Origin: Anaeropeptidivorans aminofermentans
GTDB lineage: Bacteria > Bacillota > Clostridia > Lachnospirales > UBA5962
Direction: 5' to 3'
DNA length: 64,000 nucleotides
Assembly: GCF_940670685.1 (NCBI RefSeq)
Contig: NZ_OW711693.1
Coordinates: forward strand, 3,224,001-3,288,000
The notes below the pieces were generated by a model that had not been told where the DNA came from, did no database searches, and saw nothing but the letters and a program-made list of their open reading frames with translations. Below are positions 14,323 to 63,292 of the stretch, piece by piece (the stretch's first letter is position 1; each line of letters begins with the position of its first letter). Made by a program: the position numbers and the translations under genes.

Positions 14323-14546
14323 GTAGGCAGTGCCTGAAAATAGTTAAACCGCCTCTATGTTAGAAATACAGCTCTAAATTTAATGAATTTTAAACAAAAA
14401 TAAGTAATCTGCCGGAAAATAAGTATCCGAGTATTTTTAAGGATGCAGGCCTGTTTTATGGTAAATTCACCAGGCCTTGGCCTTTTCAGACACGTTTAAA
14501 AAATACTTTAATCTTTTTACCGGAAGGCATCTTTTGGCCTTACAAA

Positions 14547-17226: not shown

Positions 17227-17304
17227 ATATATTCTCCCTTCTTTAAAGATTATTTGCCGAATTTCTTAAGTGAATTTATCTTTTCATTTTCTTTCAAAAT
17301 ATTA

Positions 17305-18711: not shown

Positions 18712-18988
18712 AAAAATCCTCCTTTTCTGTATTGACAATGATTCATCTTTAAAGAGATTAAAATGGTTTCCCTTGATATTATTCTAAAACCCTCTCACGA
18801 TGAAAGGTATATAGTGTAAATTTATATAAAATCAATATTATTTCTTCCTGTTTTATGTATTATTTTTATATTACTATTCTCTAAATCCTTAAATCATATG
18901 TAACTTTGCAATAGATACAAGCTGTTTATACAATTTTTCATTGTATATATAGTCATATACAACAACAAAGAATGATTTATGGCAAAAT

Positions 18989-43796: not shown

Positions 43797-43830
43797 AAAA
43801 AAGCGCCCCTTTATTAGGGGCGCTTTTTTA
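43797..43830. terminator. Terminator after the selenoprotein reductase operon
   Basis: GCGCCCC (43803-43809) pairs with GGGGCGC (43817-43823), flanked by A and T runs on both sides. It is a bidirectional terminator about 70 bases after the CPWC-protein stop. Confidence 0.85.
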
Positions 43831-43898: not shown

Positions 43899-44504
43899 TT
43901 ACTGAACCAGTTTTTCTATTACCAATTGAAATACCTCAAAGGGCTGGGGGCCGACAACTGCATAAGCGTCATTGAGAATATAAGTAGGAAGGCTGTCGAT
44001 ATCTCTTTGCTGGGCTTCCAATGTATATTTATCAATAGCTGCTGCATATCTGCCGCTTTCCGTCATTCTTCGCATTTCTTCCCCGTTAAGCCCAGCTTCT
44101 TCAGCAGCGGAACTTAACACGTCCCAATTGCCAATATCCTTCCCCTCACCAAAAAGCTTTTTAAATACAGCTTCGTTAAAAGGAAGCAGCCGCCCCTGCT
44201 CACGGGCATATTCGGTAGCTTCAAGGGCAAGCTTTGTATAAACCATATGCTCCGGAAATGTGATAGGAAGCCCATTGACTTTCGCCATACGGCTTACTCT
44301 TTCGTACATATCCGCTTTGCTCGCTTTTTCCTCAGGGGTCATTCTCATGCCCTCCGGAGGAATTTCCGGATGAAGCAGCAAAGGGCGCCAATCAATTTGG
44401 GCGCAGTATTCATACTGCAGCCGTTTTGCGGCAATCTGCCCCAAATAGCACCATGGGCAAAGATAGTCATAATAAACTGTTACTGTAAAATCTTTCAGCT
44501 TCAT
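43899..44504 (-). CDS. DsbA-family thioredoxin-fold oxidoreductase (FrnE-like, CPWC)
   Basis: A 201-residue protein with a thioredoxin fold split by a helical insertion. The active site C16-P17-W18-C19 sits after the first strand (VTVYYDYLCPWCYLGQ), and the cis-proline region follows IDSLPTYILNDAYAVVGPQP. There is no signal peptide, so it acts in the cytoplasm, as do FrnE and 2-hydroxychromene-2-carboxylate isomerase relatives. It is 45 bases after the GrdB-like selenoprotein gene with a good GGGAGG site. In that context it may pass electrons to, or recycle, the selenoenzyme; this is inference. Confidence 0.82.
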   Translation of the reverse strand: MKLKDFTVTVYYDYLCPWCYLGQIAAKRLQYEYCAQIDWRPLLLHPEIPPEGMRMTPEEKASKADMYERVSRMAKVNGLPITFPEHMVYTKLALEATEYAREQGRLLPFNEAVFKKLFGEGKDIGNWDVLSSAAEEAGLNGEEMRRMTESGRYAAAIDKYTLEAQQRDIDSLPTYILNDAYAVVGPQPFEVFQLVIEKLVQ

Positions 44505-44549
44505 ATTTACATTCCTCCCGACTTTGCCTTGGTCACGGCCTTATGGCAG

Positions 44550-45854
44550 CTATTTAAACAGCTGAGGCTTTTCAATATCTGCTTGAAGGGCTTCTAAAGC
44601 TGTGCGTACAATTTTCCTGCGCAAAGTGATTTCAGCGTCAGGCGGCAAAGCCGCATCCCCCATAGGGTGAATAATGCCGTTTCCCTTAACCATACGGTTA
44701 CTGTTTGCCATCATGGCAATATTAGGCAGGCTGGTAATTTGAGCAACAGGAATTCCCGCTCCTTCAATTTCTTTAGCCAAAGTTGCACCGCAACGCGTGC
44801 TGGTGCCTCAGGTGGAGGTGAGAATTACCGCGTCAACGCCGTCTTCTTTCAAGCGTTCAACAATGCCCTGCCCTATCTTTTGGGAATTCACGATGGGCGT
44901 TGCTACACCTGTTGTGCTGTATAACGTTTTATTAAGGCTTTTAATAACACCCATATCCTCCAGTTCCTTCATTACGTCAAAAGGAACAAGCCTGAGAGGG
45001 TTTTCATTTACTTCACGGGTATCGTAACCGCTGTGGTTCGCATAGAATTCCCCGCCCTTCAGGGTATCTCTTTCGCTGAGGTCAATAGAAACGTATTTTG
45101 TTGCTGCGGCCCACTCCAGCCCGTCGGGATTTCCTGCAGGTACGAGACCGCCGTCAGTTACGAGGGCAATTTTGGCCTGTTTTAAATCTTTAACGGCAGG
45201 GGCAGGTTTTACTTCGTCAAAATGAGCTAAATCCAATTCAGGCTTTATTTCTTCTCCTCGGAACTGAGCAAGAAGCATATCTACGGACCTCACCGCCGCC
45301 GATTTATCGGAAAACTTGTTTATAAGGTAGCCCTGGCTGAAATAGCCTTCCTCTTCGGGGCTTCCGATAGGCTCCTTATGAATGAGCTTAAGCCCTATAT
45401 TTAACATCTTGCCTACTAATTTCCTCATGTCCTTGACAACACCGGCGGTTTCTATAATATAAACCTTTGAGCGATATAAATCTACGCCGGGATTTTCCTT
45501 ATACATGCCTGTTACAGCCGGAATACCCAGCTTTTCCTGAACCCCTGCGCAAATGGCGCCGCAGGCATAACCGTAGCGACCGGCGTTGAAAGCGGGACCC
45601 GCGATAACTAAATCAGGTTCATATTTTTTTACCAACTCACAGAAGATATCCGGCAGTTCTTCAATACACTCTGCCGCCGTATTGTCACCGCATATAACGG
45701 TTGCCACAACCTGACCTTTGTCACCAAGGGCGCTTTGCACCGCAAGGCCCGGGCCTACGGCTCCTTCTTTTACCTGAATTTCCGCCGAGGCCTGTTCTTC
45801 TCCGCCAAGCTGGCCGAAAAACTGATTTGTATATTGTATGACCTTCAATCCCAT
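44550..45854 (-). CDS. GrdB/GrdF/GrdH-like reductase selenoprotein (Sec349)
   Basis: The substrate-specific selenoprotein subunit of a glycine/sarcosine/betaine-reductase-type component B. The frame runs 434 codons if the UGA at 44808-44810 is read as selenocysteine: the residues before it are VDAVILTST and after it GTSTRCGATLAKEIEGAGIPV, which is the conserved Sec region of the family. The N-terminal part has VIQYTNQFFGQLGGEE and VIAGPAFNAGRYGYACG. The segment after UGA is essential and keeps family identity, so termination at UGA is unlikely. The known motif as I recall it is UxxCxxC; here it reads UxxSxxC. The gene follows the GrdE-like subunit. No GrdA, GrdC or GrdD gene is nearby. Confidence 0.9.
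44785..44810 (-). promoter_or_regulatory. UGA codon and candidate bacterial SECIS hairpin
   Basis: Immediately after UGA the mRNA can fold as GCACC (44806-44802) with GGUGC (44789-44785), and inside it GCA with UGC around the loop CGCGU. A compact GC-rich hairpin just downstream of UGA is what bacterial selenocysteine insertion needs. The exact SelB contacts cannot be judged by eye. Confidence 0.55.
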
Positions 45855-45925
45855 TATAAACCGTACCTCCTTCTTTAGGCTTCTCGAACAATCAAATTAC
45901 TTCTGATAAAACCCGTTATAAATCA

Positions 45926-47224
45926 TTAATACTTAACTTCCACCAAATTCGTGTTGCCCATCTGGGCGCCTTGGCCAAACAGAGACGTAAGCCCGTAATT
46001 AAGCTCTCCGTTTGCGTCCTTAAGATGACCGATAACACGCTCAACCGCTTGGGCTGTGACAGCTTCCGTTATATTGCCGGTATTTACCATGGCGGAAGCT
46101 TTCGGGTCGGTAAAGATAATGCCGTTTACCTTATACTTTCCGTCTGGAAGCTTAGCCGCCATATCGTCCATAAGAAGCACGGATTTTATACCGTACTTAG
46201 TGGCATTAACCGCAAACTGGGCAATATCAATCTGGGGAGAACCACCGGTAGCCTTTGTAAGGATTGCCCCGTCGGCACCCATATGCAGTGCCAGCTTAAG
46301 AGCCAAATTTACGTGGGAAACAACATCATGGTCCTCAAGCTGCGCAACTGTAGGGATAACCCCAAGCAGCAGCAAATCCTTACCGTGTCTTTCATAGAGT
46401 TCTTTAAGAATAGGATGGTTTTGAATCGTGTATGTATCAAGGGTTGCCGGAGAAGCCCCGTTAATATTCAGATAAGGATTGATAACGGCTCCGTCAAATA
46501 ATTCGTTGGGATGCAGAAGCATCGACGGCGTCCATGAATACATGCGTCCGTAAATTGAAAATTCTTCTTTCAGGTAATATCTGTAGAGATTCATAATATA
46601 AACTACCTTCGGAAGATTTTCTTTATCCTTTGCTATCTTAGTCAAAGGAGGTAAATCGTATACTTCCACTTCGTCCGGGGTTAAATCTTTGCAGCATGAG
46701 GCAAGATAAACAGCTGCCTTGAAGCCTGCAAGCTTAATGGCCACTTTATAGTTAGGTTCCTTTACGTCAACGCCTTCCGCCGGATAAGTAGTAATGCAAA
46801 TATTATGGGTTTTTGAATATACGGTGTATTCCGCCAACGGCCCTGACATATCAATGATATTTCCGTAAGGCTTTCGTCTGTCGCTGAGATGGCCGCCTGT
46901 ATCGTCAATAAGAATAACAGCGGAACCGCTTAATGCATCCGTAATCCCGTTTCCGACAAATTCAATGGTTTTATTGAGAACCCCCGGAAAGTCGCTCCCG
47001 TCTTTTCTTGCACGAGGCTCTATGGCTTCCATTACCTGAACAATCCGGGCGCTTTCCCCGGGATGTACAAGCTCAATTTCTACCTTGCTGAACTGAATGT
47101 CCTCTTCAAGCATGGTTTCAAGCTCCTGTTTATTGACAGACAATGTTCCGCTGTTGAAGCTCGTTTTTTCTGCAAAAACAACGTCCTTGACAATAAACTT
47201 TTGTAACTCAAGTCGCATATTCAT
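45926..47224 (-). CDS. GrdE/GrdG/GrdI-like reductase subunit
   Basis: A 432-residue protein resembling the proprotein subunit of component B, which in the known enzymes is cleaved to create a pyruvoyl group that binds the amine substrate. Family features include LVHPGESARIVQVMEAIEPRAR, SAVILIDDTGGHLSDRR, and ERHGKDLLLLGVIPT. The only cysteines are C143, C177 and C178; the region around residues 245-270 (DGAVINPYLNINGAS), where I recall the pyruvoyl-forming cysteine in GrdE, contains none. It may therefore use a different residue or mechanism. AGGAGG precedes the ATG. It lies between an MFS gene and the selenoprotein gene. Confidence 0.85.
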   Translation of the reverse strand: MNMRLELQKFIVKDVVFAEKTSFNSGTLSVNKQELETMLEEDIQFSKVEIELVHPGESARIVQVMEAIEPRARKDGSDFPGVLNKTIEFVGNGITDALSGSAVILIDDTGGHLSDRRKPYGNIIDMSGPLAEYTVYSKTHNICITTYPAEGVDVKEPNYKVAIKLAGFKAAVYLASCCKDLTPDEVEVYDLPPLTKIAKDKENLPKVVYIMNLYRYYLKEEFSIYGRMYSWTPSMLLHPNELFDGAVINPYLNINGASPATLDTYTIQNHPILKELYERHGKDLLLLGVIPTVAQLEDHDVVSHVNLALKLALHMGADGAILTKATGGSPQIDIAQFAVNATKYGIKSVLLMDDMAAKLPDGKYKVNGIIFTDPKASAMVNTGNITEAVTAQAVERVIGHLKDANGELNYGLTSLFGQGAQMGNTNLVEVKY

Positions 47225-47254
47225 AAAGCTTCCTCCTTTTCTCCCGCAAGTCCG

Positions 47255-48496
47255 TTATTTTTCCGGCTTGCTTTTTTTCAACATTTGGATACAGAGCGCA
47301 CCAAGTAACGATGCGGCAATGCTCATTATTACTACGCCGCTTAAATTTCCTGTGGCGTCGGCAATCATACCGCCAACAATAGGGCTTATAGCCGAGGCGA
47401 TACTGAAGAAGCCGCCTATAAGGCCAAAGCTTGTGCCTAAAAGGGATATAGGGAAATATTCCGGCAAAATAGAAGAATTGAGAACTACGGGGCCGGCACT
47501 GGATATAGCAATAAACAGCAAGCCTATCATTAATCCGACGGTTGAACGGGCACTGGTAAGAAGAACAAGCATTCCTATAGACAAAAGCACCATACCGAGG
47601 GCGTAGGCCTTGCGTTTTTCAATCTTATCTCCCAGCATTCCGAAAAGAGGCGGACTGAGAAGGGCGGCAAAACTGCTTATAGAAATAAGGCGCCCAAGCT
47701 GTACGGGCTCCCAGCCCATTTCCTGCAAATATCCCATTCTGAATGTTATAAAACCTGTATTTGAAAAACCAAATAAGAAATAGGCGGCCAATATAAGATA
47801 AAAGGACTTTTGGCCTACTACCTGCTTAAGGCTCTCCTTTGTCCATGGATTGGTCTTTTTGGCGGCTTGAGCCTGTACCGCCGCCAGTTCTTCCGGCGTT
47901 GCAGCATAGGGCTCCGTATTCATATCGATAGGCTTATTCCGTATTATAAGGAAAAGCAGAATTGTAATAGCAGCCAATGCTATTGACTCTACACGGAAAA
48001 CCGAATAATAGGGGAACTTAAGCAAAATAACCGGAATAATGAGGCCGGCAGAAAGGGTTACAATGGAAGTTCCCAGCTGGGCAAATCCCATAGCGGTACC
48101 GCGTTTTGCCCTTCCAAACCAGTTTGATAGAATCTGGGTAGGAAGAACAAACAGCGCAGCAGCGCCCACGCCTGCTATGCCGAAACCAAGGGTAAGCATG
48201 AAAACACTTCGGCCTAAGGACATAATAAATACGCCGGAGGCTAAAATCGCGCATCCGATAACCGAGGTAACCCTTGCACCGATTTTATCGGAAAGCACAC
48301 CCCAGATAATGCGCATAATAGCATCAGCCCAGAAATAGAACGACAAAATAGTGGCCATAACCGTATGGGAAATGCCCAAAGTCTCTTCCATTGTCGGAAC
48401 TAAGTAAGGATATACAAACCTCACCAATCCAACACTGAAATAAAGCAGAAAGCTTCCTAAAGTTACAACCCATGCGTAATGCAATTTTTTGACCAT
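47255..48496 (-). CDS. MFS transporter, probable substrate carrier of the reductase operon
   Basis: A 413-residue twelve-helix carrier of the oxalate/formate-antiporter-like or monocarboxylate-type MFS branch. The first-half signature loop is RIIWGVLSDKIGARV, and a central hydrophilic loop (NKPIDMNTEPYAATPEELAAV) separates the halves; the second-half copy is PLFGMLGDKIEKRKAYALG. AGGAGG lies 6 bases before the ATG at 48496. It is first in the operon and is followed after 30 bases by the GrdE-like gene, so it probably imports the reductase substrate or exchanges it for the product. A carboxylate or zwitterion is plausible. Confidence 0.85.
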   Translation of the reverse strand: MVKKLHYAWVVTLGSFLLYFSVGLVRFVYPYLVPTMEETLGISHTVMATILSFYFWADAIMRIIWGVLSDKIGARVTSVIGCAILASGVFIMSLGRSVFMLTLGFGIAGVGAAALFVLPTQILSNWFGRAKRGTAMGFAQLGTSIVTLSAGLIIPVILLKFPYYSVFRVESIALAAITILLFLIIRNKPIDMNTEPYAATPEELAAVQAQAAKKTNPWTKESLKQVVGQKSFYLILAAYFLFGFSNTGFITFRMGYLQEMGWEPVQLGRLISISSFAALLSPPLFGMLGDKIEKRKAYALGMVLLSIGMLVLLTSARSTVGLMIGLLFIAISSAGPVVLNSSILPEYFPISLLGTSFGLIGGFFSIASAISPIVGGMIADATGNLSGVVIMSIAASLLGALCIQMLKKSKPEK

Positions 48497-49010
48497 ACAC
48501 AACCTCCTACAGTAATTTTTTCATTATAAAACCTCATGCCAGCAAACAGCGCATACCAAAAAATTTTAAAAATAAAACCCTGCTCCTTCTTTCTGCGGGG
48601 CTTATAAATAAACGCCCCTAGTATAAAACGCCCCTCCTTATATGATAAATTTGTGGTGTTTTTAATTACGGCGGTATAAACCAAAGTTTAAATCCTGAAT
48701 TCATGCCTTAGGCAGTATCTTCAGGTCAAAAACCGATGCATATTCCGCCCATAAATTGCAAACTGCCTGTATGGATACGCTGTACATCTAACGAGGTTGT
48801 ATTGCCGTGAAAAATTAGAGGATAATCCTGAGATTATAACCCAAAAGGGCTATTTCTGTTTTACACAGAAATAACGCCGGTTGAAAATCAGCTTCATCAT
48901 TGCAAATTAAGCACTACTGTATTCTTGATTTTTTATGTATTTTGGACTTCTTTACAGCCGTCCTCTTATCCCTCCTATTGTCAATAAACATTTCATCATG
49001 GTATAATGTG

Positions 49011-49425
49011 AATAAAATCAAGCAAAGCTTGATTTTATTCATGAATACATCTCACAAAGGGAAATGTATGAATAGGACCCTCAATTACCATATATCCCAT
49101 AAAAACTAGGCTTCGATTAGTTTTAGTCATGAATACATTTCATAAAGGGAAATGTATGAATAGGACCCTCAATTACCATATATCCCATAAAAACTAGGCT
49201 TCGATTAGTTTTAGTCATGAATACATTTCATAAAGGGAAATGTATGAATAGGACCCTCAATTACCATATATCCCATAAAAACTAGGCTTCGATTAGTTTT
49301 AGTCATGAATACATTTCACAAAGAGAAATGTATGAATAGCGCCCTCAATTACTATATATCCCATGAAAATCAAGTAAAGCCTGATTTTATTCATGAATAT
49401 ATTTTGCAAAGCAAAATGTATCCAT
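49011..49425. repeat. 88-bp tandem repeat array, about four units
   Basis: The motif AAATGTATGAATAG recurs at 49063, 49151, 49239 and 49327, giving an exact 88-bp period. Units 2 and 3 are identical; unit 4 has diverged. Each unit contains two hairpins: ATACATTTC / GAAATGTAT and AAAACTA / TAGTTTT. The array is flanked by related larger hairpins, at the left AATAAAATCAAG / CTTGATTTTATT. Each unit can also encode a 22-residue frame starting MNT(S/F)HKGKCMNR, but none has a ribosome site. Confidence 0.85.
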
Positions 49426-49570: not shown

Positions 49571-50791
49571 TTATGACTTGGCTTCCTTTTCGCCCACAGG
49601 CAATTTAGGAAAAGCCAAAGTAAGAACGCCTGCGCATAAAGACAATATTCCTCCTAAAATATAAAGCAAAGTATAATTATCTCCCGTAAGGGGCGAAATA
49701 ATATAAGAGGGAAGCACAACAGCCAAAAGCAGCCTTATCATTGCTGAAAAGCCGCCGGCCACACCGGCATTTTCCGGCCCTATTTCTTTTAGCATGACGG
49801 GGACGGCAACCAGCTGGGAGTTTAGCCCGCTGGATACAAATCCCGTAAGAAACAGGCTTATAATAAGGGCAATCCCTTCCGGTGCCCGCCAGGCAAATGC
49901 GGTACCTATTCCCGTCAGTACACTGAATGTCCAGAAAAATGTTTCCATTCTGCCTGTTTTAATACAGATAACCGGCCCTAATACCGAGCCTGCAAAGCTT
50001 CCAATCATAATAACGGAACTTACGGCTCCTGCCGCAACTGCGTCCATGCCTTTTACACTCTGCAAGGCCTGAGGCAGAAAAGTATTTACACACATGGTGG
50101 AAGCGGTAATCAACCCTGAGGTTAGCCCGGCAATCCAGATATATCGGTTTTTTATTACTGTTGTGAGATTTTTCTTCATCGGGGGGCCGGATAATGAAAT
50201 GACTGGAAGGGGACCTGTATTTTCAGGGCTCTCTTTCATAAAAGCAATCCAGATAATCATTGCTGCCCCATTTAAAACAGCTGCAAAAATAAATGCTCCT
50301 GATACGGAAGCGAACATGGCGGTTGTGCCTACGGCAAGGGCCATAGACGCACTGGCGCCGGACAGCACTATACCTACTCCTGTACCTATTTTTCCTGGTG
50401 GGAACCAATTTCCTATAATCTTTGCAACATTTGAATTAAGAAATGAGCAAACCAAACCGGACAGAAACATGCATATAAAAAGCGCAGCAAAATTATTGGC
50501 AAATATTCGGCCTATAACAGCCAAAAGAGAAATTAAACCTGCCGCTGTCACACAAACTTTAACACCCAGCTTGTCGCACAGAACGCCCGAAGTCAGGGAA
50601 AAAAGGATTCCTGGAATCATGGCTGACGAAAAGAGAATTGAAAACTGCGCCGGGCTGATATTTAAAGACGGCATCAGTTTATACGTCTGAGAAGACAGCT
50701 GGTACATAGGATACATAGTTGCAAAATTCAATAAAAACGCACATGCAATAATAACGTATGGATAGCGGCTTGAAGTACGCTCTTCGGACAT
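49571..50791 (-). CDS. MFS transporter 2
   Basis: A 406-residue twelve-helix carrier related in layout to nitrate/cyanate or oxalate-type MFS proteins. The first-half loop is TSGVLCDKLGVKVCVTAAG. The central loop is MKESPENTGPLPVISLSGPPMKK. The ATG at 50791 has AAGGAGG 5 bases upstream, so an in-frame GTG eight codons earlier is rejected. It diverges from the PucR-family regulator gene 145 bases away, which probably controls it. It may export or import a compound related to the reductase pathway. Confidence 0.83.
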   Translation of the reverse strand: MSEERTSSRYPYVIIACAFLLNFATMYPMYQLSSQTYKLMPSLNISPAQFSILFSSAMIPGILFSLTSGVLCDKLGVKVCVTAAGLISLLAVIGRIFANNFAALFICMFLSGLVCSFLNSNVAKIIGNWFPPGKIGTGVGIVLSGASASMALAVGTTAMFASVSGAFIFAAVLNGAAMIIWIAFMKESPENTGPLPVISLSGPPMKKNLTTVIKNRYIWIAGLTSGLITASTMCVNTFLPQALQSVKGMDAVAAGAVSSVIMIGSFAGSVLGPVICIKTGRMETFFWTFSVLTGIGTAFAWRAPEGIALIISLFLTGFVSSGLNSQLVAVPVMLKEIGPENAGVAGGFSAMIRLLLAVVLPSYIISPLTGDNYTLLYILGGILSLCAGVLTLAFPKLPVGEKEAKS

Positions 50792-50936
50792 ATTTTCCTC
50801 CTTAACTTTTCCCACATCTATATTTTACACTTTACATGTACATATGTAATCAGATGGTCAGTACCAATTTGCGTTACTGCCTTTATGCACTCAAGTACAG
50901 TTCTCATCACATGCATAAGAAAGCGAGGGATTGGAA

Positions 50937-52454
50937 ATGAATCTTAACTTATCTATCCTTTCATATTATTTAGATGATTTGAAACCGGTTTCTTGCGGAA
51001 AATCAAAGCAGATGCTGAATTGCCAGGATATTCGCCTGTGGAATGAAAAAACAGCCGAGGATACTAGGTTCTGCTATTTGTCGGAATGGACATGACTCTC
51101 GGACCAGTCCCGCTTCCCGGGTAAAATAATTTGCGTGGGCGGCGGTGAGCTTGCCGTGGAACGGCTTTCTTCACAGGCGCATGAAGCGCTGGTTCTCGAC
51201 TATACGGATTTGAACAGTCTATATTCCCGCTTAAGAGACATTTTCGTGATGTATAACAATCTGGACGAAGCTTTAACAAAGGCGCTCCTTTCGGAGCAGC
51301 CCCTTCAAGTGCTGTTAAACCATGCCGCCGACTTTTTCCAAAATCCCGTAAGAGCTTTTGATGCTGATTTGGCCCTTATTGAAAGCAGCAATAACTGTCC
51401 CTACGCCGAAAACGATCTTGTTTGGAAAGAAATTTCATCGACAGGAATGGCAAGCACTATCATATCCAACAGGTTAAAAAGCAGGCAGCAGATGCAGGCT
51501 CTTTATAAATCGGAGAAGGCCGTATTTATAGACGTGGGTAAAGACTTCGCAAGGTCTATTGCCGTTAACTGCTTCAGCGAAAAAGAACGTTTCGCCATAC
51601 TCACTGTCAGCGGCTCTAAAACCTATATCTCTCCCCAGCTTCTGGGACTTGCAGACCATATTGCAGAACGTCTTACCCCTGCCCTTCTTAAATATTGCGG
51701 ACCTAAATCCTATAAGCGCTCCCAGACTGTAGCCTATATTTCGGGATTGCTGTATGGTCAACAGGTTGACCTTCAGATTATGGATGCGCGGCTTAAAAAT
51801 ATCGGTTGGAAAAAGAACGACAAATATCTGGTTCTGCGGGTCAAATTGCCTTATCAGAATTTCATGGAAGGAATAGACGGTTACAACAAAAAATATTACG
51901 CCTCTTTCTTTAAAGATAGTCTGAGCTTTCTGCAGGAGGATATTGTAAATATCATTTTAAATATCTCCGGCAAGGAAGAAGCTATATTGAAAGAAATTGA
52001 GACAATGGAAATAAGCCTTATAAGAGACGGTGCGCTCTGCGGAATAAGCCTTGCTTTTCAAGACTTTTCCATGCTGCACGAACACTATCTCCTGGCAGGC
52101 ATTGCCCTAAATTCCGGCAAGCTTTGTAATACAGAATCACCCTACCGTTATTACAGGGACTGTATGCTTTCTCACCTTTTGGGTGAATTATCCGGGATTA
52201 TGCCGCTGAGAGCTTTGTGCAATGAGGCCGTTTTGCGTATTCAGGAGCATGACGATTTGCACGGAAGCCCATTTGTTATAAGCCTTCTGGCCTATTTGCA
52301 GGAAGAGCGCAGCCTGGTAAAGGCCGCAAAGGCTTTGAATATCCATAGGAATACTTTGGTCTACAGGCTGGAACGCATATCAGAAATTGCAAAGATTGAC
52401 TTTAACGATACAAATCTGCGCATGCACATTTTATTTTCATGTGTATTGTTGTAG
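50937..52454 (+). CDS. PucR-family regulator with an in-frame UGA at codon 53
   Basis: The complete frame of 505 codons begins with an ATG at 50937 behind GAGGGA and is open to the TAG/TTG region at 52454 except for one UGA at 51093-51095. The residues on both sides fit the N-terminal part of PucR-type regulators (RLWNEKTAEDTRFCYLSEWT before, then GKIICVGGGELA after), so the frame is continuous across UGA. The C-terminus has the PucR helix-turn-helix (LVKAAKALNIHRNTLVYRLERISEIA). Three explanations are possible: a nonsense mutation, a sequencing error, or a selenocysteine. A shorter product from a GTG at 51135 is also possible. It is divergent from MFS 2. Confidence 0.65.
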
Positions 52455-55288: not shown

Positions 55289-55684
55289 CTATTGGAAATA
55301 CTTAATTTCAGGTTCCCATTCTGTAATAATCTCGATAACATAATTATTTGAAATTATCACATAATGCTTTAATTCTAGATACTCATATAAGTTACCGCAT
55401 ATTTGTTCAACAAAATTATCAAACTCTCCACTTGTTATCTGATAAATAACATTCGTAAATCCCAACGCTTTAAAGTCTTTAATAGCCTCATCTTTAAATA
55501 AATTATTAAGTGCTATTCCCTCATCTAACATTCTAAAAACTGAAACCACACCAAAATCAAGCTGTATCTTAAATTCGGGAGAAATGAGGTTAATTAGTAA
55601 TCCTTTTTCTTCTCCATTTTCTAGTAATACCTGATATTTAGCTTTAGGTATTTTGTCTTTAAAAACTTCTTGCCATTTTTCCAT
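55289..55684 (-). CDS. Putative immunity protein of cassette 6
   Basis: A 131-residue acidic soluble protein beginning MEKWQEVFKDKIPKAKYQVLL and ending EWEPEIKYFQ. It lies 12 bases after the stop of the toxin cassette and has an AAGGAGA site ahead of its ATG. Position, size and charge are those of polymorphic-toxin immunity proteins. I do not recognise the family. Confidence 0.65.
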   Translation of the reverse strand: MEKWQEVFKDKIPKAKYQVLLENGEEKGLLINLISPEFKIQLDFGVVSVFRMLDEGIALNNLFKDEAIKDFKALGFTNVIYQITSGEFDNFVEQICGNLYEYLELKHYVIISNNYVIEIITEWEPEIKYFQ

Positions 55685-55696
55685 CTATGTATCTCC

Positions 55697-56179
55697 TTAA
55701 TACCTTATTTTATATATTTTTTTATTAGAAACTTTAATTTCTAAAGTTGAACCTCCAGTTTTACTTCCAGGTCTGGCTACAACTTTTGTCCCATCACTTA
55801 ATGTCCCAACTTTACCGGAGCCATACTGAGTTTGTATATCCTTCACATTAGATGGGCCTAATGATTCAAAATCTTCTAATGTTTTTTCAAATCCTCCAGT
55901 TTTTTCATAATTACGTGCAACTCCGGCATTATTAGTAGTATCCTTCGCACCTGCAATTATATCGTCTATACTTTTTACCTTCCTCGAACCCTCAGGCCCC
56001 TTACCATCTCTAATCCCAATTGCATTCGCCGCTTCCAGAGCCTTATTATTACTTACATAGAACTCTTTTATCTCTTTGCTATGTTGAGCGCCTTGAAGAA
56101 ATTCTTCTTTAAAATATTTATCGACTTCTTCCATTTTTTGAAGAGCATTGAATGCATTGCTGCTTTTTGCCGCAAAGTT
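55697..56179 (-). CDS. Toxin cassette 6, linker and C-terminal toxin domain
   Basis: Reads from the MITE boundary through MEEVDKYFKEEFLQGAQHSKE and the junction IGIRDGKGPEG into a variable domain (VKSIDDIIAGAKDTTNN, SNVKDIQTQYGSGKVGTLSDG, STLEIKVSNKKIYKIRY). The domain resembles endings of other polymorphic toxins, but I cannot name it. A MITE separates it from its pre-toxin fragment, so it has no natural start; the first ATG in frame ends at 56134. It is probably silent or an exchange reservoir. Confidence 0.65.
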   Translation of the reverse strand, partial: NFAAKSSNAFNALQKMEEVDKYFKEEFLQGAQHSKEIKEFYVSNNKALEAANAIGIRDGKGPEGSRKVKSIDDIIAGAKDTTNNAGVARNYEKTGGFEKTLEDFESLGPSNVKDIQTQYGSGKVGTLSDGTKVVARPGSKTGGSTLEIKVSNKKIYKIRY

Positions 56180-56302
56180 TAGTAAAACAAGATTAAGGTA
56201 GTAACAAAAACCTATTTTTCATAAACGTCTTAAAATATAGAATCACTATTTTAAGCCATTCAAAATATACGGTTTTTGTTCCACCAATGCATTGTTTTGC
56301 TA
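56180..56302. mobile_element. Family C MITE-like element in the pre-toxin segment, copy 1
   Basis: 123 bp with TAGTAAAACAA / TTGTTTTGCTA ends, placed between GCAAAGTT and TGGTTCGTAACGC. Cassettes without it read GCAAAGTAATTTGTAACGC at the same point, so it is an insertion that breaks the toxin frame. Confidence 0.85.
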
Positions 56303-56387
56303 TGGTTCGTAACGCTTGATAAGCCTTCCACCGTTAGGCCTGTAATAATATCTCCTACGGAAGTTCCCATTCGGATTGTATTATAGC
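56303..56387 (-). pseudogene. Pre-toxin fragment (MGTSVGDIITG) of cassette 6
   Basis: Begins abruptly after the stop of the immunity gene with the TATAATACAATCCGAATG segment (YNTIRMGTSVGD) and runs to the MITE. It has no upstream N-terminus, which is the usual form of the downstream orphan cassettes. Confidence 0.7.
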
Positions 56388-56693
56388 CTAATTAGCTTCT
56401 CTCCAAATTACACCACCATCATACAATTTAATTTCTAATGGTGGATTTTGCATAGATATCTCAATCAAACTACCAACTTCAAAATCTAGCCTCTCGGATG
56501 GAGAACCTAATATATTTGATACACCAAATACGCAAGAATAAAATTCTTGGTAATCATCATCATCCATATCCAATCCATTGTCTGTTTCAAAAATTGTATC
56601 AATTTCACCCTCTATTTCTAAATTATTTTGCCATTTGATAATAAGCTTTGTCCCATTTGGGTACTTATTTATAGCTTTTATTAGTTCGTCCAT
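56388..56693 (-). CDS. Immunity protein for type-50-like toxin (copy 1)
   Basis: A 101-residue acidic protein (MDELIKAINKYPNGTKLII, then NGLDMDDDDYQEFYSCVFG). The ATG at 56693 has GGAGG 8 bases upstream; an ATG five codons earlier touches the toxin stop but has no site. The protein is identical to the one at 62265-62570. It should protect against the toxin encoded directly upstream. Confidence 0.7.
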   Translation of the reverse strand: MDELIKAINKYPNGTKLIIKWQNNLEIEGEIDTIFETDNGLDMDDDDYQEFYSCVFGVSNILGSPSERLDFEVGSLIEISMQNPPLEIKLYDGGVIWREAN

Positions 56694-56708
56694 GTCTTTA
56701 ACCTCCAT

Positions 56709-57856
56709 TTATGGCCTTGCCGGAACAATATGAGCCTGACCCTTGCTATCATAGTGTATTATACCTTTCGTTGTATCTGTGTAAGTTCCGGTGGCTTCAT
56801 CATAATATTGACCTATCATCTTTCCAAAATCTATGCGTTCTTTAGTAGCCCCGACTAGTTGCCCTGTTCCCGCATAATCATCAAGTAATTGTTGTGGATT
56901 TTCTGATAATATACTTCTAGGTTTTCCTTTGGCAACTTCTTGATTATAATTATTTGTTCCGGGTATATGTTTGTCTTGTTGCCCTTTATTGACTTTAATA
57001 CCGTTTGGATTTGCCTTACTCCCCGCGCCCTCAGTGCCTTTACCATCTCTAATCCCGATTGCATTCGCCGCTTCCAGGGCCTTATTATTACTTACATAGA
57101 ACTCTTTTATCTCTTTGCCATATTCAGCGCCTTGAAGAAATTCTTCTTTAAAATATTTATCGACTTCTTCCATTTTTTGAAGAGCATTGAATGCATTGCT
57201 GCTTTTTGCCGCAAAGTTTAGTAAAACAAGATTAAGGTAGTAACAAAAACCTATTTTTCATAAACGTCTTAAAATATAGAATCACTATTTTAAGCCATTC
57301 AAAATATACGGTTTTTGTTCCACCAATGCATTGTTTTGCTATGGTTCGTAACGCTTGATAAGCCTTCCACCGTTAGGCCTGTAATAATATCTCCTACGGA
57401 AGTTCCCATTCGGATTGTATTATAGGTGGCGATAACCCATCCTTTATCCTTACTGCTCAGCTTCTTTTCGTAGGGTCCGAAATTTACTTTGCTCCATTCG
57501 TCATGGGATTCTAATATATCGTATACAGCAAGCCTCTCCTCTATATCAGGCAGTATTTTAAACATATCATAGTTCAAAAGAAAGTCCATTTTCTGAACTG
57601 CCGCATCCGTAAGGGGCTCTTTCTCAAACATCTGCTCCACTATAAGCTTGTCTGCATATCTTCTGTAGAGTTCTTCCGTATATTCGGGGGCTTTTTTTAA
57701 TTCCTTTCTTATTTCTTCTTTGCTTATATAGGTTTTCGTAGGATTATAGAAGAAGAATAAGTCTTCTGCCGAAAGCATCTCTTTAAGAAAACTTATAAGT
57801 TCTTTTTTGCTTAGAAGAGGTTCTTTGACCTTGCTGTTTTTATCCTGTGAAACCAA
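56709..57856 (-). pseudogene. Complete pre-toxin plus type-50-like toxin, split by a MITE
   Basis: The best-preserved long gene of the array. The N-terminal part (57856 down to about 57342) reads LVSQDKNSKVKEPLLSKKE, then LLNYDMFKILPDIEERLAVYD, FGPYEKKLSSKDKGW and MGTSVGDIITGLTVEGLSSVTN. It starts with a TTG behind a GGGGG run. A 123-bp MITE then ends the frame. The remainder continues with the linker, IGIRDGKGTEG, and a toxin domain (GQQDKHIPGTNNYNQEVAKG, LLDDYAGTGQLVGATKERIDFG, TTKGIIHYDSKGQAHIVPARP) that matches polymorphic toxin type 50 as I recall it. No secretion signal is visible. Confidence 0.75.
57219..57341. mobile_element. Family C MITE-like element in the pre-toxin segment, copy 2
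   Basis: Same 123-bp element and same insertion point as the copies at 56180 and 62057. Confidence 0.85.
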
Positions 57857-57867
57857 AGCCCCCTTTC

Positions 57868-58125
57868 TTAAAGATTTATACTACGGCAACATCAATCCAA
57901 ACGAAAAACCATTCATCAGATTCAGAATATAGTAAAGACATCAAAATTGTGTTCGGAATAGAGGAAAAATTACTCACTCTCTTGAATGACACAGAGAAAG
58001 AATTATTTCAGACTTTTTCAAATGCCCACGGAAATATGAACCGGGTTGCTGTAGCTGACGGTTTTGTGGACGGATTCTGTTTGGGAATGCGGATTTCCGT
58101 CAAAGTCCTGGAGAAGCAATTTTAG
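57868..58125 (+). pseudogene. DUF6809-like small gene, frameshifted remnant 2
   Basis: The same one-base shift (PFI then DSEYSKD) as remnant 1, followed by a frame ending VDGFCLGMRISVKVLEKQF. It lies head-to-head with the start of the pre-toxin gene. Confidence 0.55.
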
Positions 58126-58129
58126 GAAG

Positions 58130-58166
58130 AACACAAAAAGCCTACGAAACCTAGGCTTTTTGTGTT
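58130..58166. terminator. Bidirectional terminator after cassette 4
   Basis: AACACAAAAAGCCTA pairs perfectly with TAGGCTTTTTGTGTT. Confidence 0.8.
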
Positions 58167-58220
58167 GAATAAATAGCTAAACAGCAACAAGTCTAACATA
58201 TGATAAATGTAGAGTTTAGG

Positions 58221-58607
58221 CTATTCTTCACCTTCTACCCATACCTCTTCACATTTTACAGTTAACCACCTAGGATTATCATCGATTGTTTTTATGCTAA
58301 CTTCAAATAATCCATTATTGCTCTTAGCTAAACAATGTGTGATTGTGTACCAGCTAAAAACGTATGATTGTAGCTCGATTTTTGGTATGTCACTAAAAAC
58401 TTGGGGCATATTAAATGCTGCTTCTCTACAGTTTTTAAAGCGTATTGTTAACTCTCTGTTCTTATTTCTGCCATCTTGAGTATCCCAATAATAATCAACT
58501 GCAACCAGTAAATCTAGCATATTAGAATCCCAATTAATACTGTTCACAATACTATCTGTAAAATCAAAATTGCTATTAAAAACGTCAAAATCCTTTGTAA
58601 GTATCAA
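58221..58607 (-). CDS. Putative immunity protein of cassette 4
   Basis: A 128-residue acidic protein (LTKDFDVFNSNFDFTDSIV, LLVAVDYYWDTQDGRNKNREL, ending EEVWVEGEE). The start is TTG behind GAGGTGAT, 11 bases after the toxin stop. It resembles small immunity proteins of beta-rich type but I cannot name the family. Confidence 0.65.
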   Translation of the reverse strand: MILTKDFDVFNSNFDFTDSIVNSINWDSNMLDLLVAVDYYWDTQDGRNKNRELTIRFKNCREAAFNMPQVFSDIPKIELQSYVFSWYTITHCLAKSNNGLFEVSIKTIDDNPRWLTVKCEEVWVEGEE

Positions 58608-58618
58608 ACTATCACCTC

Positions 58619-59465
58619 TTATTGTCCGAAATAAAAATGGGTTAAATCTCTTAATTCTTGTTTAGTAGCATTGCTTGGGAATAATCCGTTATTATCTAAA
58701 TAGCCGCCACCTTTGTTTTGAACTCTAAAATACGGAGTACCCTCCCCTGGAGTTGCATGGATTCTTACTTTTGTTCCGGTTGCTGGGTCAGTAAGAATTG
58801 TTGCAGGCCCACTTTTGCCTCCGCCTGCTTCAACTGTTTTTGTCCATCCGGAGTTTTCAAGACTATTGATTAATTCGTTTGGTTTAGCATTTTTTCCTAT
58901 ACTGTTAAAGTCCTTGCCCGTCCATTTTACGTTCCCCGTGCCCTCAGTGCCTTTACCATCTCTAATCCCAATTGCATTCGCCCCTTCCAGGGCCTTATTA
59001 TTACTTACATAGAACTCTTTTATCTCTTTGCCATATTCAGTGCCTTGAAGGAATTCTTCTTTAAAATATTTATCGACTTCTTCCATTTTTTGAAGAGCAT
59101 TGAATGCATTGCTGCTTTTTGCCGCAAAGTAATTTGTAACGCTTGATAAGCCTTCCACCGTTAGGCCTGTAATAATATCTCCTACGGAAGTTCCCATTCG
59201 GATTGTATTATAGGCGGCGATAATCCATCCTTTATCCTTACTGCTCAGCTTCTTTTCGTAGGGTCCGAAATTTACTTTGCTCCATTCGTCATGGGATTCT
59301 AATATATCGTATACAGCAAGCCTCTCCTCTATATCAGGCAGTATTTTAAACATATCATAGTTCAAAAGAAAGTCCATTTTCTGAACTGCCGCATCCGTAA
59401 GGGGCTCTTTCTCAAACATCTGCTCCACTATAAGCTTGTCTGCATATCTTCTGTAGAGTTTTCCC
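58619..59465 (-). CDS. Toxin cassette 4, truncated pre-toxin plus toxin domain
   Basis: The longest uninterrupted cassette without a MITE. It enters mid pre-toxin (LYRRYADKLIVEQMFEKEP), runs through MGTSVGDIITG and the junction IGIRDGKGTEGTG, and ends in a toxin domain of about 105 residues (GKDFNSIGKNAKPNELINSLE, GPATILTDPATGTKVRIHATP, LFPSNATKQELRDLTHFYFGQ). The family is not recognised; the ELINSLENSGW start faintly recalls HicA-type RNases. No ribosome site precedes the first possible start (GTG, 59428). The 5' end has been cut by a DUF6809 remnant. Confidence 0.65.
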
Positions 59466-59661
59466 GAGGCAAAGACATCAAGATTATGTTCGAAATAGAA
59501 GAAAAATTACTCACTCCTTGAATGACACAGAAAAAGAATTGTTTCAAGCTTTTTCAGATGCTCGCGGCAACATAAGCCGAATCGCAATAGCTGATGGTTT
59601 TGTGGATGGGTTTTTGTGCCGGAATGAGAATTGCTATTGATGTTATGTTGAAACAATTCTA
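59466..59661 (+). pseudogene. DUF6809-like remnant 3
   Basis: Starts at the AAAGACATCAA point shared by remnants 3 and 4 and carries further frame changes (after KLLT and near VDGF). It lies between cassettes 3 and 4. Confidence 0.5.
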
Positions 59662-59668
59662 AACAATA

Positions 59669-59700
59669 CAGAAAAAGCCTAAGATTTAGGCTTTTTCTGT
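59669..59700. terminator. Bidirectional terminator after the barstar gene
   Basis: CAGAAAAAGCCTAA pairs perfectly with TTAGGCTTTTTCTG around GAT. Confidence 0.8.
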
Positions 59701-59711
59701 TGAATAAATAT

Positions 59712-60116
59712 TTAATCAACAAGATAAACATTAAAAGGCTTGGATTTCCCTCCCACAACACACCGCTCTACTTCCTCTTGCCAAAATGGAAGTACTGTTT
59801 CTTTAAGGCTATCCATAACTATTGCCTTTATTCTTGCATCTTTTGATAAAAATTGGCTATAGCTATAAATAATTAAAGTATATCCGTCGCTGTCAAGCCA
59901 ACTTAAATCTCGAATCCAATCTAAATACCTGTCGATACTGTCAATACAAGTGGTTGGAAATTTCATTTTTTCCTCAATTTTTAAAATATAATCATTCCAG
60001 GATTGAACATCTACGCCGTTTATTTCTACAAGGTATGTTAACGGTTTCTTTTTTATCTCTTGAACTATCTTTACTATCTCTGCTTGATTGATATGAAAAA
60101 TCTTGTTTTCAAACAT
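59712..60116 (-). CDS. Barstar-family immunity protein
   Basis: A 134-residue inhibitor of the barnase-like RNase encoded just upstream. The barstar core is visible: a strand and first helix (TYLVEINGVDVQSWNDYILKIEE), the loop and helix that in barstar fill the RNase active site (FPTTCIDSIDRYLDWIRDLSWL), then DGYTLIIYSYSQFL. TAGGAGT precedes the ATG, 11 bases after the toxin stop. Confidence 0.85.
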   Translation of the reverse strand: MFENKIFHINQAEIVKIVQEIKKKPLTYLVEINGVDVQSWNDYILKIEEKMKFPTTCIDSIDRYLDWIRDLSWLDSDGYTLIIYSYSQFLSKDARIKAIVMDSLKETVLPFWQEEVERCVVGGKSKPFNVYLVD

Positions 60117-60127
60117 AAATTCAACTC

Positions 60128-60706
60128 CTATTTAATTTTTATGAATGTGCTGTAATGGTCACTTGTGTAATAAATTGATCCATCACTTCCAGTCAAAAAT
60201 CTCTGTGCATCTCTGGTAGCTCCCGGAATATAATTATTTACATCAAATTCTTTATAAGTTATTGGATTCCCTGCGCTATTCGTTGTTGGGAGTTTAGAAT
60301 CAAAGTTATTATACTTTGATCCAGCAGCTGTGCCTTGTGTTTGCCCGCTAAAATTTCCCTTCCAACCATTTTTCTCATATCCATTATATGCTTTTTGAGC
60401 ATTGTCAGGTAGATCATCATAACTTCCATTTTTGATTACGTTCCCCGCGCCCTCAGGCCCTTTACCATCTCTAATCCCGATTGCATTCGCCGCTTCCAGG
60501 GCCTTATTATTACTTACATAGAACACTTTTATCTCTTTGCCATATTCAGCGCCTTGAAGAAATTCTTCTTTAAAATATTTATCGACTTCTTCCATTTTTT
60601 GAAGAGCATTGAATGCATTGCTGCTTTTTGCCGCAAAGTAATTTGTAACGCTTGATAAGCCTTCCACCGTTAGGCCTGTAATAATATCTCCTACGGAAGT
60701 TCCCAT
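60128..60706 (-). CDS. Toxin cassette 3, barnase-like ribonuclease domain
   Basis: 192 residues from the first in-frame ATG. Residues 1-85 are the shared pre-toxin segment and linker to IGIRDGKGPEG; about 95-192 form a microbial RNase (barnase/RNase N1) domain. Catalytic residues fit barnase: E153 in YKEFDVN, R165 and R169 in GATRDAQRF, H184 in SDHYSTFIKIK. The spacing matches barnase E73, R83, R87 and H102. Upstream (60707-60983) the pre-toxin frame continues but has a 4-base deletion after ESH, so the full N-terminus is lost. No ribosome site precedes the ATG. Confidence 0.88.
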   Translation of the reverse strand: MGTSVGDIITGLTVEGLSSVTNYFAAKSSNAFNALQKMEEVDKYFKEEFLQGAEYGKEIKVFYVSNNKALEAANAIGIRDGKGPEGAGNVIKNGSYDDLPDNAQKAYNGYEKNGWKGNFSGQTQGTAAGSKYNNFDSKLPTTNSAGNPITYKEFDVNNYIPGATRDAQRFLTGSDGSIYYTSDHYSTFIKIK

Positions 60707-60983
60707 TCGGATTGTATTATAGGCGGCGATAATCCAGCCTTTATCCTTACTGCTCAGCTTCTTTTCGTAAGGTCCGAAATTTACTTTGCTCCATTGTGAG
60801 ATTCTAAAATATCGTATACAGCAAGCCTCTCCTCTATATCAGGCAGTATTTTAAACATATCATAGTTCAAAAGAAAGTCCATTTTCTGAACTGCCGCATC
60901 CGTAAGGGGCTCTTTCTCAAACATCTGCTCCACTATAAGCTTGTCCGCATATCTTCTGTAGAGTTCTTCCGAGGCAAAGACAT
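60707..60983 (-). pseudogene. Pre-toxin N-terminal fragment of cassette 3
   Basis: Reads EELYRRYADKLIVEQMFEKEP to LAVYDILESH, then a 4-base deletion shifts the frame before WSKVNFGPYEKK. It begins at the junction with a DUF6809 remnant. Confidence 0.75.
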
Positions 60984-61167
60984 CAAAATTGTGTTCGGAA
61001 TAGAGGAAAAATTACTCGCTCTCTTGAATGACACAGAGAAAGAATTATTTCAAACTTTTTCAGATGCCCATGGCAATATGAGCCGAATTGCCATAGCTGA
61101 TAGCTTGGTGGATGGTTTCTGTTTGGCAATGAGAATTACTATTGAAGTCATGGGAAAACATAATTAA
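60984..61167 (+). pseudogene. DUF6809-like remnant 4
   Basis: Runs from the GACATCAAAATTGTG point to the stop after IEVMGKHN; nearly identical to the end of remnant 1. Confidence 0.5.
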
Positions 61168-61223
61168 GGTAAATACAGCGCAATCTCCCTTGTTTACAAA
61201 TTGCACTTTATAATTGGAAATAT

Positions 61224-61571
61224 TTATGAAACTTCCTCTATAATCTTTTTTGAACGTTTACCAAGTAATTCTGTCAAATAAGTCCTTTCTTTGAAGAGAT
61301 ATGCTGTGCTTTCAAAAACACTCAGCGATATTACTTCGTCAACGTATTTGTCATTGAGACATAGTAAATCTTCAATAAAGTTGAAAATATTAGTTATTTC
61401 TTGTCTATCATTTTGTAAAATGCACTCTACTAGATAAGGCGTAAGGACATCACCAAATACAGTATGAGAACCCGTACTATCACCCTCTTGCCAGCTAATC
61501 TCGTCATCATATCTTTCACGAAGTTTTGGCAAATGTTCTATTAATTTTTTGTTAAGATCATCGCTTTTCAA
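61224..61571 (-). CDS. Immunity protein, DUF7674-like (copy 2)
   Basis: Identical in protein sequence to 54276-54623, with the same TTG start behind GGAGG and directly abutting the toxin stop. Confidence 0.7.
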   Translation of the reverse strand: MKSDDLNKKLIEHLPKLRERYDDEISWQEGDSTGSHTVFGDVLTPYLVECILQNDRQEITNIFNFIEDLLCLNDKYVDEVISLSVFESTAYLFKERTYLTELLGKRSKKIIEEVS

Positions 61572-62056
61572 TTAATTTCCTCCTAACGCATTTTTTAAAT
61601 CATTTAAAAGCTTAGTGGCAATATCCAAATCACTTTGATTGAGAGGTTGTTTATTGATAATATTTTCAAGATTGCTCACTCTTTCCATCGCTTTGCGTAT
61701 ATGTGATTTGCCTCCAACCAATTCACCTGTAGATAGTTCATGTCGTACAGCATCTGCTAATCCGCCATCTCCTGTTTTAGCACCTGGTCTATAAGTTTCA
61801 TTAATGGCATTCTTTAGTTTGTCATTTTGTGCTGAGTTTAACAGCTTATCTCTTATACTCCCCGTGCCCTAGTGCCTTTACCATCTCTAATCCCGATTGC
61901 ATTCGCCGTTTCCAGGGCCTTATTATTACTTACATAGAACTCTTTTATCTCTTTGCCATATTCAGCGCCTTGAAGGAATTCTTCTTTAAAATATTTATCG
62001 ACTTCTTCCATTTTTTGAAGAGCATTGAATGCATTGCTGCTTTTTGCCGTAAAGTT
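61572..62056 (-). pseudogene. Toxin cassette 2, frameshifted C-terminus (copy 2)
   Basis: Carries the same one-base deletion after DGKGT as copy 1 (54624-55128). The upstream pre-toxin frame is additionally broken by a MITE at 62057. Small substitutions, for example ACA to AAA in the TTGDGG region, distinguish the copies. Confidence 0.75.
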
Positions 62057-62179
62057 TAGTAAAACAAGATTAAGGTAGTAACAAAAACCTATTTTTCATA
62101 AACGTCTTAAAATATAGAATCACTATTTTAAGCCATTCAAAATATACGGTTTTTGTTACACCAATGCATTGTTTTGCTA
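62057..62179. mobile_element. Family C MITE-like element in the pre-toxin segment, copy 3
   Basis: Same 123-bp element at the same site; downstream of it lies a different toxin domain from that behind the copy at 56180. Confidence 0.85.
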
Positions 62180-62264
62180 TGGTTCATAACGCTTAATAAG
62201 CCTTCCACCGTTAGGCCTGTAATAATATCTCCTACGGAAGTTCCCATTCGGATTGTATTATAGC
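62180..62264 (-). pseudogene. Pre-toxin fragment (MGTSVGDIITG) of cassette 2
   Basis: Same abrupt start after the immunity stop as at 56303-56387. Confidence 0.7.
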
Positions 62265-62570
62265 CTAATTAGCTTCTCTCCAAATTACACCACCATCATA
62301 CAATTTAATTTCTAATGGTGGATTTTGCATAGATATCTCAATCAAACTACCAACTTCAAAATCTAGCCTCTCGGATGGAGAACCTAATATATTTGATACA
62401 CCAAATACGCAAGAATAAAATTCTTGGTAATCATCATCATCCATATCCAATCCATTGTCTGTTTCAAAAATTGTATCAATTTCACCCTCTATTTCTAAAT
62501 TATTTTGCCATTTGATAATAAGCTTTGTCCCATTTGGGTACTTATTTATAGCTTTTATTAGTTCGTCCAT
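62265..62570 (-). CDS. Immunity protein for type-50-like toxin (copy 2)
   Basis: Identical to the protein encoded at 56388-56693, with the same internal GGAGG site and ATG. Confidence 0.7.
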   Translation of the reverse strand: MDELIKAINKYPNGTKLIIKWQNNLEIEGEIDTIFETDNGLDMDDDDYQEFYSCVFGVSNILGSPSERLDFEVGSLIEISMQNPPLEIKLYDGGVIWREAN

Positions 62571-62585
62571 GTCTTTAACCTCCAT

Positions 62586-63292
62586 TTATGGCCTTGCCGG
62601 AACAATATGAGCCTGACCCTTGCTATCATAGTGTATTATACCTTTCGTTGTATCTGTGTAAGTTCCGGTGGCTTCATCATAATATTGACCTATCATCTTT
62701 CCAAAATCTATGCGTTCTTTAGTAGCCCCGACTAGTTGCCCTGTTCCCGCATAATCATCAAGTAATTGTTGTGGATTTTCTGATAATATACTTCTAGGTT
62801 TTCCTTTGGCAACTTCTTGATTATAATTATTTGTTCCGGGTATATGTTTGTCTTGTTGCCCTTTATTGACTTTAATACCGTTTGGATTTGCCTTACTCCC
62901 CGTGCCCTCAGGCCCCTTACCATCTCTAATCCCAATTGCATTCGCCCCTTCCAGGGCCTTATTATTACTTACATAGAACTCTTTTATCTCTTTGCTATAT
63001 TGAGCGCCTTGAAGAAATTCTTCTTTAAAATATTTATCGACTTCTTCCATTTTTTGAAGAGCATTGAATGCATTGCTGCTTTTTGCCGCAAAGTAATTTG
63101 TAACGCTTGATAAGCCTTCCACCGTTAGGCCTGTAATAATATCTCCTACGGAAGTTCCCATTCGGATTGTATTATAGGTGGCGATAATCCAGCCTTTATC
63201 CTTACTGCTCAGCTTCTTTTCGTAGGGTCCGAAATTTACTTTGCTCCATTCCCTGTGAGATTCTAAAATATCGTATACAGCAAGCTATCCTC
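62586..63292 (-). CDS. Toxin cassette 1, truncated pre-toxin plus type-50-like toxin
   Basis: Open from LAVYDILESHREWSKVNFG through MGTSVGDIITG (first ATG ends at 63161, 191 residues from there) and the junction IGIRDGKGPEGTG to the type-50-like domain ending GIIHYDSKGQAHIVPARP. Unlike its partner at 56709-57856 it has no MITE, but it lacks the first 100 residues of the pre-toxin and any ribosome site. A TAG stop lies just upstream. Confidence 0.75.

Follow-up and report, generated by a model that had tools for sequence, protein, structure and literature searches.

The stretch analysed here, called the window throughout, comprises 64,000 nucleotides of the Anaeropeptidivorans aminofermentans genome (NZ_OW711693.1, positions 3,224,001 to 3,288,000), and it carries at 43899-48496, on the minus strand, genes for a carrier of the major facilitator superfamily (MFS), a GrdE-like subunit, a GrdB-like selenoprotein and a DsbA-like protein, separated by gaps of 30, 71 and 45 bp (Table 1). 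An initial annotation, made from the sequence alone, had described four same-strand genes with short gaps, an in-frame UGA with family sequence on both sides and a strong terminator, and all of these were confirmed, with the selenoprotein B model TIGR01918 running across the UGA (residues 4-434, 465 bits against a cut-off of 65) and PF07355 reaching 444 bits against a cut-off of 22. It may be noted that the arms of the terminator are formed by 43797-43809 and 43817-43829, and that the terminator scan gave a shorter stem on the plus strand.

Table 1. Features of the operon (window coordinates)
Feature	Position	Strand	Evidence
MFS carrier gene	47255..48502 (TTG start) or 48496 (ATG start)	-	MFS_1 4.7e-49 (Pfam)
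GrdE-like subunit, 432 aa	45926..47224	-	Gly_reductase PF09338 1.4e-97 (Pfam)
GrdB-like selenoprotein B, 434 aa, TAG stop, U349	44550..45854	-	GRDB PF07355 4.7e-133
In-frame UGA = selenocysteine U349	44808..44810	-	within GrdB-like frame
SECIS_4-like selenocysteine insertion element, directly 3′ of UGA	44770..44807	-	Rfam, 35.2 bits
DsbA/FrnE-type thioredoxin-fold protein, 201 aa	43899..44504	-	DSBA PF01323 1.7e-33, 116 bits
Intrinsic terminator 3′ of operon	43797..43829	-	13-base arms, 7-base loop, T run; read from sequence

The selenocysteine codon and two altered cysteines

The GrdB-like protein reads TSTUGTSTRCGAT at its selenocysteine. We compared the 85 codons 3′ of the UGA with those of the orthologue, found in a metagenome-assembled genome (MAG, G707) of another class, and obtained 17, 10 and 50 differences at first, second and third positions with 64 of the 85 residues identical, as for a sequence that is translated and under purifying selection. 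This codon-position pattern rules out a pseudogene, and a chance UGA is also ruled out, the orthologue having the same codon with conserved sequence on both sides. The SECIS_4 match of the window (E 3.8e-5) is slightly below the gathering score of 38 and that of the orthologue, at 43.9 bits, is above it. The folding energy of the hairpin in the window copy is by itself unexceptional, since 19.7% of 1000 synonymous recodings were equally low.

Behind the selenocysteine the UxxCxxC motif is not kept, as the protein has UGTSTRC, with the +3 cysteine replaced by serine and the +6 cysteine retained (UxxSxxC). Searching the collected loci by pattern gave 17 distinct GrdB motifs, a count that omits the many loci with GrdE but without a nearby GrdB, and of these 12 have UGTC, 4 UGTS and 1 UGTD. 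The four UGTS carriers, all UGTSTRC, are the window, the orthologue and two further genomes (G552 and G542), while the UGTD case is a second locus of the host (L011). The motif with its +3 cysteine is held to protect the selenocysteine, and a B component of strain DCMF that has no UxxCxxC was discounted as probably a pseudogene (both in the available text of PMC6778437). For annotation this matters, as in the present case one such change is common to four genomes and the window gene is under purifying selection.

The GrdE-like subunit is without the pyruvoyl-forming cysteine, having NPYLNINGASPA in place of the SGNCVSACDKN of glycine GrdE, and in the aligned pyruvoyl region neither the window nor the orthologue has any cysteine at all. 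GrdE forms a pyruvoyl group from a cysteine, and a peptide covering 242-266 of the Clostridioides difficile protein is reported (PMC9908766, available text); the cysteine of the GNCVS motif is taken by us to be this residue, from its position nearby and its alignment with the PrdA cysteine. A cysteine occupies the column in 68 of 77 aligned GrdE-type rows, the single PrdA row included, and since the rows were picked as best matches these counts are not population frequencies. The remaining 9 rows are four betaine-type proteins (Phe), the window and its orthologue (Leu, with an insertion), host locus L012 and G542 (Tyr), and G552 (Thr).

Placement among reductases of known substrate

The pair passes none of the models for a known substrate, which supports the suggestion of the initial annotation that it may reduce a different one. 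In the NCBIfam models the GrdB-like protein scored 434.8 bits against the 602.2 needed for the glycine GrdB equivalog TIGR01917, 492.9 against 800 for the sarcosine exception model GrdF and 429.7 against 775 for betaine GrdH, while the GrdE-like protein scored 245.3 against 780 in the sarcosine model GrdG. The D-proline models are further away (PrdB 87.3 against 300, PrdA 27.9 against 700). The fluoroacetate reductase model FarE, NF053623, gave 171.2 against 675, no better than the glycine GrdE (173) or the sarcosine GrdG (185) of the host itself; of 348 genomes of the host phylum, 26 matched the FarE family at E <= 1e-60 and none exceeded the cut-off.

In the GrdE tree the window and its orthologue group at 100/100, G552 joins them at 97/92 and G542 at 99/97, and a node at 95/92 then unites this group with L012 and the betaine rows, these being the nine rows without the pyruvoyl cysteine; the tree has long branches (PrdA, L012, L076, L075) and its bootstrap values are unsettled, but when PrdA, L012 and G542 were left out, in a tree reduced to 18 rows, the placement did not change. 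In the GrdB tree the same four genomes group at 91/92. The approximately unbiased (AU) test rejects a clade made up of the window, its orthologue and either the sarcosine rows (p 0.0003) or the betaine rows (p 0.0002). Since the trees do not resolve the glycine rows as a clade, it is the failed model score and the absent cysteine that set the pair apart from them. Neither the GrdE-like nor the GrdB-like protein matched any solved structure searched by sequence.

The host genome is one contig of 3.76 Mb, estimated to be 96.75% complete, and it holds six GrdB genes, six GrdE genes and one GrdA gene (with a TGA). The latter is part of a gene cluster that comprises selA, selB, tRNA-Sec, a glycine riboswitch, grdX, grdE, grdB, trxB, trxA, grdA, grdC and grdD; selD, itself with a TGA, is also present, so that the genome has the selenocysteine machinery whose absence would have spoken against the initial annotation. 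That annotation also noted no GrdA, GrdC or GrdD nearby, and no grdA was found in the operon or in the 64-kb window: the full grd operon lies 2.3 Mb away along the contig, or 1.4 Mb in the opposite direction should the contig be circular. Scores above cut-off identify a glycine pair (GrdB 740 against 602), a sarcosine pair (GrdG 831 against 780, with GrdF at 776 just under 800) and a betaine pair (GrdH 811 against 775, with a betaine BCCT carrier adjoining), and three pairs, that of the window included, are below every substrate cut-off.

The window pair could also be a diverged reductase that acts on glycine, sarcosine or betaine and duplicates the function of the dedicated pairs of the host. 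The sarcosine models do give its best scores and, with the glycine rows unresolved, the tree alone leaves glycine possible. Yet the cut-offs for all three substrates are failed, the AU test rejects the unions with the sarcosine and the betaine rows, the host is already equipped for all three, and the cysteine that the glycine and sarcosine reference rows possess is missing, so we regard this as highly improbable.

Regarding the other two host pairs below cut-off, L011 (G000:C1:3723000-3740000, at 7580-14446) has a GrdEB pair with GrdX and the motif UGTDTRC, in a run with mannose-family phosphotransferase system subunits and a SIS-type sugar-phosphate protein; a sugar-linked substrate, e.g. glycated glycine, is conceivable. 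In L012 (G000:C1:619000-637000, at 6607-11009) the order is GrdB-GrdE, the pair stands behind an amino-acid-permease-like gene and its GrdE is one of those without the pyruvoyl cysteine. Within the window, GcvPB and GcvPA (glycine decarboxylase subunits, 15664-18738) are over cut-off and fit glycine metabolism.

The DsbA-like protein, the carrier and the conserved gene order

The DsbA-like protein has a CPWC active site (C16 and C19), belongs to the DSBA domain family with its CxxC and matches FrnE chains in the PDB at 5.7e-16; no signal peptide was seen on inspection by eye. In the orthologous operon an in-frame TGA stands precisely at the first active-site cysteine, giving UPWC against CPWC, and thus selenocysteine and cysteine are exchanged at this site between the two genomes. 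Selenocysteine-containing DsbA-like proteins are listed as a class, 'DsbA-like protein form 1', in the available part of PMC13188914, and these share with the window protein the thioredoxin fold with [CU]xxC, the latter differing in being encoded beside a GrdEB-type pair. A literature search by listing gave no paper tying DsbA to a glycine-, sarcosine- or betaine-reductase-type pair; the co-mentions with glycine reductase were, by title, surveys, databases and bioinformatics.

The models nearest to the MFS carrier are those for L-lactate, D-galactonate, phosphoglycerate and oxalate/formate carriers, and it stays under the cut-off of each. As the carrier is of the MFS and not the BCCT type and its nearest models are of these organic acids, a carboxylate anion is hinted at as cargo.

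We searched for relatives with the GrdE-like protein or a two-row alignment in 146 genomes of relatives, 391 of the class, 398 of the phylum and 295 of the order, as well as in 8 and 13 genomes around the orthologue (these samples overlap). A single orthologous set was found, on contig 37 of the Bacillota MAG (JAAYHG010000108.1), where MFS, GrdE, GrdB and DsbA genes occur in identical order with 44, 58, 71 and 53% identity. The claim of the initial annotation that the operon has its own carrier and thioredoxin-fold protein is thus upheld, as both belong to the set in a genome of another class. The next GrdE-like matches in the phylum have 37-40% identity and their alignment stops near residue 402. 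In genome contigs the single-protein query gave no match and the two-row alignment matched the same MAG contig alone; in viral contigs no relative was found; and six plasmid records have distant GrdE-like relatives and 23 GrdB-like ones, some of which served as named references. When 388 genomes of the phylum were queried with the DsbA pair, three matched at E <= 1e-40, namely the host, the MAG and a further genome, G884.

The G+C content of the operon is 45.9%, higher than in every 4.6-kb stretch sampled in the window (mean 39.9, standard deviation 2.7, highest 45.8). This raised value, together with the scattered distribution, suggests that the operon was acquired horizontally.

Proposed function and its alternatives

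Since the pyruvoyl cysteine is absent, as in FarE and GrdI, the pair probably takes a substrate that forms no Schiff base. A Schiff base is believed to activate glycine and sarcosine, while fluoroacetate is unable to form one and FarE, like GrdI, is without the pyruvoyl cysteines (PMC10838667, available text); betaine can form none because its nitrogen is quaternary. On balance, somewhat more for than against, we read the GrdE-like/GrdB-like pair as the substrate-specific protein B of a system of the glycine-reductase type that takes a carboxylate of this kind and feeds GrdA, GrdC and GrdD that are shared with the other pairs. The substrate would be a small carboxylate with a leaving group on its alpha-carbon, and the MFS carrier would import it. 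U349 of the GrdB-like protein would then attack the alpha-carbon with departure of the leaving group, and the carboxymethyl-selenoether formed would be passed to the one GrdA of the host and on to GrdC/D to yield acetyl phosphate. The DsbA-like protein may re-reduce U349 in trans; we propose this because the clade has lost the +3 cysteine of the protective UxxCxxC, so that the protein is best read as a reductant substituting for the lost thiol. The shared route is favoured for the group because the sister pair of G552 belongs to a same-strand run that also includes coenzyme A-transferase-like genes, GrdC and GrdD, as well as, behind GrdB, a C-GCAxxG-C-C protein.

The nearest known plan is farACEB of Cloacibacillus porcorum MFA1, the fluoroacetate reductase treated in PMC10838667 and PMC12366334. 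By the published description, as far as the available text of the former gives it, these four genes comprise an oxalate/formate-type MFS carrier, a FarE without the two pyruvoyl cysteines and a selenocysteine-containing FarB with altered cysteines behind the selenocysteine (no CxxC residues), and likewise no grdA/C/D is among them. The window operon may be a haloacetate (fluoro- or chloroacetate) reductase working like FarEB, with the MFS carrier bringing in the haloacetate, the selenocysteine displacing the halide and GrdA/C receiving the carboxymethyl group; this would be one particular form of the reading we prefer, with which it overlaps. The agreement in plan favours it, as do the below-cut-off matches of the window carrier to lactate and oxalate/formate models. 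However, the window protein is far below the FarE cut-off, farACEB has a radical SAM gene where the window has DsbA, and no fluoride riboswitch was over the gathering score in the window or at the orthologue; we hold the haloacetate assignment to be rather unlikely. Among the other systems, betaine GrdH/GrdI also has a GrdE-type subunit without the pyruvoyl cysteine, neighbouring in the GrdE tree, but its GrdH keeps UGTCTRC, its carrier is of the BCCT family and the window fails the GrdH model. Sarcosine GrdF/GrdG and glycine GrdB/GrdE are of the same two families with the selenocysteine at the same place, and differ in that their reference rows keep both the pyruvoyl cysteine and UxxCxxC.

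The initial annotation, which did not include the two lost cysteines, the selenocysteine form of the DsbA or the fluoroacetate precedent, left two modes side by side, shared GrdA/C/D and a stand-alone reductase in the manner of D-proline reductase, and the latter finds little support, as PrdA and PrdB are far below cut-off and the sister pair of G552 is accompanied by GrdC and GrdD. A related form of self-sufficiency is that the (seleno)DsbA takes over the part of GrdA, either as acceptor or as donor of electrons, and that the product is freed without acetyl phosphate. Here DsbA in the same operon of two distant genomes, with selenocysteine in one, the mirroring of the GrdA CxxU by the DsbA UxxC and the lack of grdA in operon and window are in favour, but GrdA, C and D exist elsewhere in the host, the G552 neighbourhood again points to GrdC and GrdD, and another UPWC DsbA was seen without any Grd gene in its neighbourhood (18 kb read), which leaves this an improbable mode of action. 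Bolder, and quite improbable, is a GrdA-independent selenoenzyme in which the GrdB-like selenocysteine takes a carboxymethyl group from a non-amine carboxylate (e.g. haloacetate) and hands it, or its own oxidised state, to the Sec/Cys DsbA of the operon, which then completes the reduction. If true, this would add a third mode to the glycine-type (GrdA/C/D) and proline-type (PrdA/B/C) reductions of this enzyme class.

Returning to the reading with shared GrdA/C/D, a number of results weigh against it. The two trees disagree, as in the GrdB tree the window group is not near the betaine rows, and the link to betaine reductase is therefore not supported by both subunits. The pyruvoyl group of GrdE has also been suggested merely to keep GrdB active (PMC9908766, available text), which weakens the step from the lost cysteine to the kind of substrate. 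The conserved order MFS-GrdE-GrdB-DsbA is known from two genomes, and the loci of G552 and G542 (18 kb each) have no relative of DsbA or MFS. Also, for the DsbA of G884 (L105, 336-1007), again UPWC and on a contig with tRNA-Sec and selB, with an aldo/keto-reductase-like gene upstream (by eye), the 18 kb read contain no Grd gene, though the contig stops some 340 bases behind the DsbA gene. The tie between DsbA and GrdB is thus not strict, and the DsbA step is the least certain because G552 and G542 have no such protein near their pairs. Another 80 contigs of the orthologue MAG, 396 kb in all, gave no GrdA, GrdC or GrdD, but this is too small a share of its about 360 contigs and 1.7 Mb to carry weight.

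Glycine-reductase-type B components determine the compounds that can serve anaerobes as electron sinks, and the substrates assigned so far are glycine, sarcosine, betaine and, lately, fluoroacetate. A group with two landmark cysteines changed, and with its own redox partner in two genomes, predicts a further substrate with testable features.

Upstream of the operon lie a tandem array (49014-49421, unit of 88 bp, 3.8 copies), a divergent gene with a PucR-type helix-turn-helix (51135-52454) and a second MFS gene (49571-50815). The G+C of these two genes is elevated as in the operon and the PucR-type gene is a possible regulator; the second, upstream MFS genes of the window and the orthologue are unlike each other and were left out of the conserved set. 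Elsewhere in the window, 28243-29499 encodes a LarAH6-type nickel-dependent malate racemase (over cut-off), and 55289-63161 has repeated genes with a common N-terminal part (GIRDGKG) and varied C-terminal parts, one of them Ntox50, which looks like a polymorphic toxin cassette array.

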